A stretch of 64,000 nucleotides of DNA. Source: Cuniculiplasma divulgatum. GTDB taxonomy: Archaea; Thermoplasmatota; Thermoplasmata; Thermoplasmatales; Thermoplasmataceae. This document shows positions 13,308 to 30,314 of this stretch, piece after piece. A program made the position numbers and the translations under genes. The DNA lies in NCBI GenBank assembly GCA_031200235.1, contig CP133595.1, forward strand, positions 1,240,001-1,304,000. The letters are read 5' to 3'. Every line of letters begins with the position of its first letter. The first letter of the stretch is position 1. The notes under the pieces are model-generated. The model saw only the letters and a list, made by a program, of their open reading frames with translations, had not been told where the DNA came from and did no database searches.

Positions 13308-13910
13308 ATGACAGAAGAGGAATTATTGCTTTCGGAAGAGGAATACCAGAAATCCGGCATTCACATAGGAACACAGGTAAAGTCAAAGGATATGCAGGAG
13401 TACATCTTCAAGATCAGGAACGACGGCCTTTACATCCTTGACATCAAGAAGACCAACAGCAAGCTCATAGTTGCAGGAAAGATGCTGTCCAGGTTCAAGC
13501 CCTCTGAAATACTGGTCGTAGCCCAGAGGCAGTATGCATTCAAACCAGTCACAAAGTTTTCAGAAGTGGTTGGGGCAGAATCCATAGTCGGCAGGTTCAT
13601 TCCGGGCACCCTGACCAACCCACAGCTGTCCAGCTACAGGGAAGCAAAGGTAATCATAATCACCGATCCCCTGGCAGACACGCAGGTCATGAAGGAGGCA
13701 AAGAGGGTTGGAGTGCCAATAGTGGCTCTCTGCGATGCAAACAATAAGACTGATTTCGTTGACCTCATAATACCCACAAACAACAAGGGAAGAAGATCCC
13801 TGGCAGTGATATACTGGCTGCTGGCAAGGGAGATCCTGAAGAACCGTGGTACCATAAGGGATTACTCGGAGTTCAACTACACCATTGACGATTTCGAGTC
13901 CCAGATCTGA
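13308..13910 (+). CDS. rps2: 30S ribosomal protein S2
   Basis: 200 residues. Archaeal S2 features include GIHIGTQVKSKDM, YILDIKKTNSKL, GRFIPGTLTNP and the terminal NNKGRRSLAVIYWLLAREIL. It belongs to the small-subunit body near the decoding platform. Its 3' end overlaps convergent endA by 34 bases. A TATA-like TTTAAATATA lies near 13259-13268, and it appears to be transcribed singly. Confidence 0.97.
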   Translation: MTEEELLLSEEEYQKSGIHIGTQVKSKDMQEYIFKIRNDGLYILDIKKTNSKLIVAGKMLSRFKPSEILVVAQRQYAFKPVTKFSEVVGAESIVGRFIPGTLTNPQLSSYREAKVIIITDPLADTQVMKEAKRVGVPIVALCDANNKTDFVDLIIPTNNKGRRSLAVIYWLLAREILKNRGTIRDYSEFNYTIDDFESQI

Positions 13911-14845
13911 TGGTCATTGAGAAAGGGGTCCCTTACCCTGATAATTTTTACATATGCAGTCCTTGAACCGGATCTTCCGGCAAATACCATTTCTTTCCTT
14001 ACGCCCTGCGCGACCCTTACGGCCCTGCTTATTTTGTACCATTCCTCAGTTTCCTCAAGCACATGCACAAGGAACTCTGCATGGGCATCAATGTTAACAC
14101 CATAAACCCTGAAATTTGCTCCGTACTTGAATCCTGTTCTCACTATGAATCCCCTGGACACAAGATCGCGGAAAACCCTCATGGTGAGGCTCTCATCGTT
14201 ACCTGCCGTTCCGGACAGAAGTGAAGATTCGTATTCGTTCAGGAGCCTTATGCTCCCAAGGGTCGTCCCCATCCACTCAGGTATGCCGCTGTCCTCGGAT
14301 GCAGGGGTACCATTGAGATCAACTATGTTTTTTGGGTTACCCAGCGCAGTCCTGACATTACCTTCAGGTTCAAACGGTCTGGCAATGAACATTGTGATAT
14401 CGTGATCGTCGTCTATGGCTGCATAGATCGAATCATTGCCCGCTACGAGCTGGGAAAATGTAATGGTGCGGTCTTCCCTGACCGTGACAACAGGTCCCCT
14501 GTAATCCTCACGTGGCGTTCTTCTGTAATACATGGAGTTGTTCTCAACCTTCACCAGGAAGCCCTTTGATTTCAGCAACTGAAACAGGTAGAAGCGATCG
14601 GTGAACCCTGGGGGCTGATCAAACGCGCTGATGAGGGAAAGAAGGCTTCTCATGGAGGGATTCTCCGCTGTGATTCTTCCCTTAATAACAAGATAGAGCG
14701 CCTCGTACGGATCCAGGTAGAGGATCCCGGAAATTATCCTGCCCACTCTGTACTTGCTCTGCAGATGAGAGGGCCCCTTCCCCTCTTCTATGGAAAAGAC
14801 AACCTTCTGGCATATTGCCCTATGCGGTCCGCTGCCTTTTTGCAT
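13877..14845 (-). CDS. endA: tRNA splicing endonuclease, two-repeat type
   Basis: About 322 residues, consistent with the alpha-2 class in which each chain carries two endonuclease units. The C-terminal unit keeps the catalytic elements: Tyr in YGANFRVYG, His in AHAEFLVHV and Lys in RVAQGVRKEMVFAG. The N-terminal unit is degenerate. It cuts bulge-helix-bulge introns; a suitable substrate, tRNA-Trp, is at 30173 in this window. The start at 14845 has GGAGAAGG just before it, inside the end of the GTPase gene, so the two are probably co-translated. Confidence 0.9.
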   Translation of the reverse strand: MQKGSGPHRAICQKVVFSIEEGKGPSHLQSKYRVGRIISGILYLDPYEALYLVIKGRITAENPSMRSLLSLISAFDQPPGFTDRFYLFQLLKSKGFLVKVENNSMYYRRTPREDYRGPVVTVREDRTITFSQLVAGNDSIYAAIDDDHDITMFIARPFEPEGNVRTALGNPKNIVDLNGTPASEDSGIPEWMGTTLGSIRLLNEYESSLLSGTAGNDESLTMRVFRDLVSRGFIVRTGFKYGANFRVYGVNIDAHAEFLVHVLEETEEWYKISRAVRVAQGVRKEMVFAGRSGSRTAYVKIIRVRDPFLNDHQIWDSKSSMV

Positions 14846-15350
14846 AAACCTTCTCCACAAGGCTGTCGGTGATGCTGTTCAGCAGCTCCGGAATGCCTTC
14901 ACCGGTCCGCGAGGATACCATCACATAGTCCACTTTTTCCTTTTTTCCAATCTTCTCAATATCCTCAGTCCAGATCTGGGCCTCGTACTTCATGTCAGAT
15001 TTAGTTCCCACAAGCAAAATCTGGGGTTTTTTCTCAAAAGTCTTGGAATATTTCACTATGTCATGGGCAAAGTCCAGTGAAGCAGGGTTTGTGACATCCA
15101 CCAGCACAAGTATTATGTTGGATCCTGGAAGAAACCTTTCTGCCTCCGGGCCATCAGATATTTCCTGGAGCAGCAGATCAGCAGATATCTTGGTGCCGTC
15201 CCTGTCAACAACAAGACGCTTCCTTGAAAGCAGTTTTGAAGCCGAACCAGGGCTGTCAGAATCGTATACTACCCGGGATATGAGGGCACTTTTGCCGGTA
15301 CCTTTGCCTCCGGCAACACTAACTTTCCAGGCAACACGATCCATGACCAT
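14820..15350 (-). CDS. Ras/Rab-like small GTPase
   Basis: About 176 residues. G1 is GGKGTGKS near the N-terminus, the G4-like motif is GTKSD and G5 is SSRTGEG; the normal DxxG of G3 is replaced by a less typical EISDGPE. This suits the archaeal Ras-superfamily group, whose roles are mostly unknown. ATG 15350 lies about 27 bases from a TATA-like ACTATAAG (minus strand, 15375-15383); the frame also opens at TTG 15356. It overlaps endA by 26 bases. Confidence 0.8.
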   Translation of the reverse strand: MVMDRVAWKVSVAGGKGTGKSALISRVVYDSDSPGSASKLLSRKRLVVDRDGTKISADLLLQEISDGPEAERFLPGSNIILVLVDVTNPASLDFAHDIVKYSKTFEKKPQILLVGTKSDMKYEAQIWTEDIEKIGKKEKVDYVMVSSRTGEGIPELLNSITDSLVEKVYAKRQRTA

Positions 15351-30172: not shown

Positions 30173-30314
30173 GGGAGCATGGGGTAATCAGGCCATCCTA
30201 GCGGGCTCCAGTCAGGTTATGATTAACTATGGGTCACCTGAATTTGTGATGAGTGACTGGAACTATGAACCAGGAAGAGACCCGTAGATCTGGGTTCGAA
30301 TCCCAGTGCTCCCA
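30173..30314 (+). tRNA. trnW: tRNA-Trp (CCA) with intron
   Basis: Exons 30173-30211 and 30280-30314. Acceptor GGGAGCA pairs with TGCTCCC (30307-30313), discriminator A30314; the anticodon stem GCGGG pairs with CCCGT around loop CTCCAGA with anticodon CCA at 30208-30210; the T arm is CTGGG-TTCGAAT-CCCAG. CCA is not encoded. The intron is assigned to the canonical 37/38 site, which gives a complete cloverleaf. The D-stem is the weakest element. It is the only tRNA seen in the window. Confidence 0.93.
30212..30279 (+). ncRNA. tRNA-Trp intron carrying a box C/D methylation guide
   Basis: 68-base intron. Box C-like ATGATTA (30219-30225), D' CTGA (30238-30241), C' GTGATGA (30246-30252) and D-like ATGA (30265-30268). 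The guide at 30227-30235 pairs with 30279-30287 (nine pairs, one G-U), placing the fifth base before D' (30233) on position 39. The guide 30254-30261 pairs perfectly with 30207-30214, placing the fifth base before D (30260) on C34. Archaeal tRNA-Trp introns of this kind are known to direct methylation of 34 and 39; here position 39 is C. Confidence 0.85.

Follow-up and report, generated by a model that had tools for sequence, protein, structure and literature searches.

A tRNA-Trp intron of Cuniculiplasma divulgatum that very probably also serves as a dual box C/D methylation guide, with a compensated K-turn pair

Introduction

Does the intron that interrupts the tRNA-Trp(CCA) gene of the archaeon Cuniculiplasma divulgatum also direct the modification of the tRNA from which it is removed, and if so, at which positions? 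The gene lies at 30173-30314 (+) of the window, i.e. the whole stretch of 64,000 nucleotides that was analysed, and a sequence-only reading of this stretch had proposed that the intron is a box C/D guide which, by the fifth-base rule, targets positions 34 and 39. A guide intron in pre-tRNA-Trp has reportedly been described for Haloferax volcanii, by Clouet d'Orval in 2001 and by Singh in 2004, and this type of intron is the same as sR50 of Pyrococcus.

Results

The acceptor, D, anticodon and T stems of the tRNA all pair in the gene, which is the sole tRNA-Trp(CCA) match in the 2.0-Mb genome; neither ARAGORN (bacterial settings) nor Rfam at gathering thresholds found it when run on the window. 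Reading the sequence directly and checking the stems, we assigned tRNA positions 1-37 to exon 1 (30173-30211, +), which has C34 at 30208 and ends in ...GCGGG-CTCCAG(37), and positions 38-73 to exon 2 (30280-30314, +), which starts with A38-CCCGT and has C39 at 30281. Direct reading and homologues place an intron of 68 nt at 37/38 (30212-30279, +). In the order C, D', C', D and all on the forward strand, it contains box C (ATGATTA, 30219-30225), aligned to the canonical RTGATGA of relatives in family f3; box D' (CTGA, 30238-30241); box C' (GTGATGA, 30246-30252), placed by alignment and box offsets; and box D (ATGA, 30265-30268), with spacers of 12 nt both from C to D' and from C' to D. A short stem flanks the C/D K-turn, its 5' strand at 30215-30217 (+) pairing with its 3' strand at 30269-30271 (+), and all three of its pairs show changes on both sides. 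The coordinates and box calls of the sequence-only reading were thus right. Throughout, f1 is the label of the family of the window species, and other labels with f, g, G and L denote families, genera, genomes and loci, respectively.

A search of the order yielded homologues in 90 of 117 genomes. We extracted 87 intron-bearing pre-tRNAs from the order and aligned 52 distinct rows, across which boxes and guides are kept; the alignment of Thermoplasmatales introns therefore bears out the proposed box C/D guide and its targets, which by the fifth-base rule are positions 34 and 39. When the boxes in 145 introns were placed from target complementarity and the fifth-base rule alone, an NTGA was present at the box D position in 132 (ATGA in 103, CTGA in 24) and at the box D' position in 129 (CTGA in 126).

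Some introns depart from this arrangement. L101, L105, L115, L145 and L149 (mostly Hadesarchaea) and L116, L130, L151 and L194 (Thermoprotei) lack a box D where one is predicted; the centre of these tRNA-Trp introns is D'/C'-like, they have the anticodon-complementary ACTGGA, which the scan required, and in some from Hadesarchaea exon base G37 would be the first base of a box-C-like GTGAAGM. Separately, one genome has a second tRNA-Trp copy (L062, G066:C10:116351-116492), which lies about 1.8 kb away from the first. This copy has substitutions in its acceptor stem, its D arm and its D' guide and may be a duplicate in decay.

The D guide, TGACTGGA (30254-30261, +), pairs with 30207-30214 (+), i.e. 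U33 to G37 and the first three intron bases, by eight of eight possible Watson-Crick pairs, and G30260, the fifth base before box D, pairs with C34 (30208), exactly as had been claimed from the sequence. Among the 52 distinct rows, 99.3% of the cells of this duplex are paired and 18 double changes occur, compared with at most 42% pairing for slid versions. The pair at intron base 2, for instance, is C-G in 34 rows and U-A in 18, with the guide changing along, and in the distant relative L272 the change of G37 to A37 is accompanied by a matching change in the guide. Taken together, the pairing and its covariation give strong support to the prediction that C34 is 2'-O-methylated, which we consider very likely. 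Because the duplex includes intron bases, this modification would have to precede splicing. A loose search for stand-alone C34 guides (CTGGANNNNTGA) returned too many matches to interpret.

The D' guide, CTATGGGTC (30227-30235, +), was said to pair with 30279-30287 (+) and to target position 39, and the pairing is borne out as well: all nine pairs with intron base -1 and positions 38-45 can form, one of them G-U, and G30233, the fifth base before box D', pairs with C39 (30281). The duplex is paired in 85% of cells in the 52 distinct rows, with 21 double changes, and slid versions reach at most 43%. The partner at intron base -1 is lost in 7 of the 52 rows, and G37, which is the same letter as intron base -1, is paired with the D' guide in every f1 row checked. 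With the intron -1 pair unconserved and the G37 pair kept, modification of C39 could either precede or follow splicing, which sets it apart from that of C34. At the level of the class, most introns end in AA and have a D' guide with a matching TT (GGGTTT), which suggests that in these relatives the precursor is the D' target. The match between D' guide and tRNA-Trp is just 5-6 consecutive nt long in many relatives.

The sequence-only reading had noted the C at position 39 as a difference from other euryarchaea. This C is not special to the genome, as 143 of 147 parsed introns have C39 and a review gives 'Cm34 and Um39 (or Cm39)' (PMC6313347). In P. furiosus, C39 of tRNA-Trp is a predicted guide target at which methylation was not detected (PMC7668247). 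Common in relatives and listed in the review, yet undetected in P. furiosus, C39 is thus neither peculiar nor secure as a target. We therefore see methylation of C39 in the window lineage as likely, with moderate support, weaker than that for C34. Both duplexes, of 8 bp for the D guide and of 9 bp including a G-U for the D' guide, fall below the rule of nine consecutive Watson-Crick pairs that has been used for archaeal rRNA targets (PMC4644070).

A different possible target for the D' guide came to light in 34 introns from five other families and part of f3, in which this guide reads AAGAGGGTCA. Loci of this type are L263-L267, L269 and L270 (f29, f30, f33 and f34), L268 (f31) and, in f3, which has species of the DHVE2/Aciduliprofundum group, L074-L076, L084, L085 and L087. 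AAGAGGGTCA is a perfect 10-11-nt complement of UGACCCUCUU in helix 69 of 23S rRNA (site 1916/1917-1926, ..AUGACCCUCUU..), and the fifth base falls on a C that, judging by eye from the conserved loop of helix 69, is C1920 in E. coli numbering. The introns concerned pair with tRNA-Trp over just 5-6 nt, and the distal half of AAGAGGGTCA is invariant while tRNA positions 42-45 vary (GCCG, GCGG, GTCG, GCTG). The 23S site is identical in the window genome (L339) and in f3 (L287), and for the other families it was assumed from conservation.

It could thus be argued that the true target of the D' guide is 23S C1920, reached in trans by the excised intron, and that the pairing with C39 is a by-product of the pentamer GACCC. 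This reading gains from the long match in the 34 introns and from the failure of their guide to follow the tRNA, and just 2 of 300 guides with random flanks around the same core reached 11 bp anywhere in rRNA. Two stand-alone C/D RNAs, in genomes G006 and G025, share the D' guide, and methylation in archaea is predicted to cluster in helices 68, 69 and 71 (PMC4644070). In the window species, however, the D' guide forms 6 pairs at C1920, compared with the at least 9 consecutive pairs to 23S 1916-1926 that were asked of a C1920 guide and with 9 (one G-U) to tRNA-Trp; its other rRNA match, of 8 bp, is not better than random (76 of 300). Furthermore, the D' guide follows tRNA-Trp in much of f1, in f2 and f5 and in most of the class. 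We therefore regard 23S C1920 as an unlikely true target, and for the window species a D' guide that is still directed at 23S was rejected on its 6 bp. A stand-alone C1920 guide with boxes was looked for in 0.86 Mb of the genome of this species, and none was found.

Since the tRNA-Trp C39 site and the 23S C1920 site share GACCC, the D' guide seems able to switch between them, and target switching around this pentamer would be the simplest account of the pattern. Judging from the complementarities, the chances are about even that in f29, f30, f31, f33, f34 and part of f3 the intron is bifunctional, the D guide directing C34 and the D' guide 23S C1920, and that the window lineage stands on the tRNA side of the GACCC switch.

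The two stand-alone RNAs mentioned above (L297, G006:C1:1353115-1353163, and L304, G025:C2:328662-328715), which carry AAGAGGGTCA as D' guide, have a D guide that fits CUCAUAGGGC, probably C34 of pre-tRNA-Met, a target assigned by eye; we take them to be of the tRNA-Met C34 guide type sR49. Their C-D' half is almost the same as in the f3 tRNA-Trp introns, which suggests paralogy.

Boxes C (ATGATTA) and D (ATGA) of the window intron had been called degenerate, and here the earlier claim has to be revised. The 4b:4n pair of the K-turn consists of the sixth base of box C and the first base of box D, an assignment that we take from established K-turn structure, and in the window intron this pair is U-A in place of G-C, i.e. 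a compensated pair. Among 134 distinct introns we counted U-A in 104, G-C in 16, and A-U and C-G in 3 each; four introns are real mismatches (L236, L239, L242, L257); L083 and L168/L170/L176 were mis-parsed in this count and are U-A and G-C by eye. The pair is U-A in 32 of 32 f1 and 7 of 7 f5 introns and G-C in 12 of 12 f3 introns, these relatives having textbook RTGATGA/CTGA boxes. The internal C'/D' pair is G-C in 131 of the same 134 introns, and a canonical stand-alone C/D RNA of the window genome (L305, G000:C1:830586-830633), conserved in most genomes examined, has G-C at both K-turns, as do its close relatives. As C'/D' and the stand-alone RNAs stay G-C, the change is confined to the terminal C/D motif of the intron.

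The C/D stem and K-turn pair are 92% paired, with 35 double changes and a covariation of 0.413, compared with 0.077 in shuffles. Because both changes compensate, the unusual boxes C and D should make a working K-turn. The K-turn core (UGA / GA) and a closed 4b:4n pair are present, and motif and covariation point to binding by L7Ae. In L024, of genus g6, the terminal boxes are more eroded (ATGTTTA with AAGA), and both guides and C'/D' are kept.

The genome encodes fibrillarin (2.3e-54), Nop5 (1.1e-36) and L7Ae (1.2e-22), and fibrillarin turned up in each of the order's 51 good genomes. The gene for the splicing endonuclease (3.5e-21) lies within the window, at 13877-14860 (-), about 16 kb from its intron-containing substrate. 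In G024, the only genome of family f4, the tRNA-Trp intron (L089) is 15 nt long and has no guide; fibrillarin and Nop5 were not found in G024, as if guide and machinery had been lost together, a reading tempered by the 86% completeness of the assembly. A scan for sigma-70-type promoters is uninformative for an archaeon.

The bulge-helix-bulge is known in a form with two 3-nt bulges and a 4-bp helix. The 3' strand of its central helix, GAAG (30274-30277, +), pairs with 30206-30209 except for an A opposite C34, so that three of the four pairs are formed in the window. The base opposite C34 is A in all f1, G in f2-f4 and U or A in most relatives of the class. That this mismatch is tied to guide function was considered and rejected, as f2 and f3 combine guides with a perfect helix. 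Since the D guide duplex excludes the bulge-helix-bulge, methylation and splicing would be alternate states of the precursor.

The pairing between intron and anticodon might also be purely structural, holding the precursor for splicing and guiding no methylation. The predicted single-strand fold, with an unremarkable z-score of -1.5, indeed places the D guide on its anticodon-loop target in cis, and some introns of Hadesarchaea and Thermoprotei keep ACTGGA without NTGA at D, in a scan that required ACTGGA. A structural role alone is nevertheless improbable, more so than the 23S target: the boxes stand exactly at the fifth-base offset, the C'-D spacer is 12 nt in 140 of 145 introns, the K-turn pairs covary, and the guide duplex competes with the bulge-helix-bulge instead of forming it. 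A chance look-alike without function, which might be read from the short guides and from two boxes that are off consensus (box C at position 6, box D at position 1), is in practice refuted by conservation: the arrangement is kept across order and phylum, guides, K-turn and stems covary across the 52 distinct homologues of the order, and none of 20,000 shuffled introns had at least 8 pairs in both guides, with 7 of 20,000 having NTGA at both box positions predicted by the fifth-base rule.

Discussion

Having weighed these readings, we find it highly probable, from pairing, box placement and covariation, that the tRNA-Trp intron has a second role as a dual box C/D methylation guide for C34 and C39. 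In the sequence of events that we propose, pre-tRNA-Trp would be transcribed, L7Ae would bind the K-turns C/D and C'/D', as motif and covariation suggest, and Nop5 and fibrillarin, whose genes are present, would then join. The D guide, which can pair across the 5' splice site, would direct 2'-O-methylation of C34 before splicing, and the D' guide, which can pair with positions 37/38-45, may direct methylation of C39, the less certain of the two reactions. The splicing endonuclease would finally remove the intron at the bulge-helix-bulge; this structure and the guide duplex probably compete for the anticodon loop.

Two aspects of these results are new. The first is the phylum-wide compensated C/D K-turn pair, which scans based on the consensus would call decay. 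The second is evidence that, in several families, a guide in a tRNA intron has a better fit to rRNA than to its host tRNA. If the latter reading is true, a tRNA intron would link the modification of tRNA and ribosome; this would explain why the D' guide is retained where its match to the tRNA is poor, and would be a clear case of guide target switching.

The window intron is a new member, and a compensated variant, of the pre-tRNA-Trp box C/D guide introns known already. The H. volcanii type has been reported in at least 29 archaea; Cm34/Um39 have been shown for this precedent, and the choice between action in cis and in trans was left open, in vitro data being in favour of trans (PMC2584109). 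The window intron shares with this type its location at 37/38, the four boxes, a D guide for C34, a D' guide for position 39 and the intronic nature of the guide, with intron sequence required for C34. The H. volcanii type differs in having an intron of 103 nt rather than 68 nt, U rather than C at position 39 and G-C rather than U-A as C/D K-turn pair, and an A opposite C34 in the bulge-helix-bulge helix sets the window intron apart. Stand-alone archaeal C/D sRNAs share with it the box order, the 12-nt spacers and the fifth-base rule but, unlike the window intron, lie outside a tRNA and have G-C at both K-turns. With regard to the consensus of archaeal box C/D k-turns, the 3-nt bulge, the tandem G-A/A-G and the U-U at 3b:3n are the same here, whereas the 4b:4n pair, for which G:C is strongly conserved in archaeal box C/D K-turns (PMC5689011), is U:A in the window intron and in most tRNA-Trp introns of the Thermoplasmatota.
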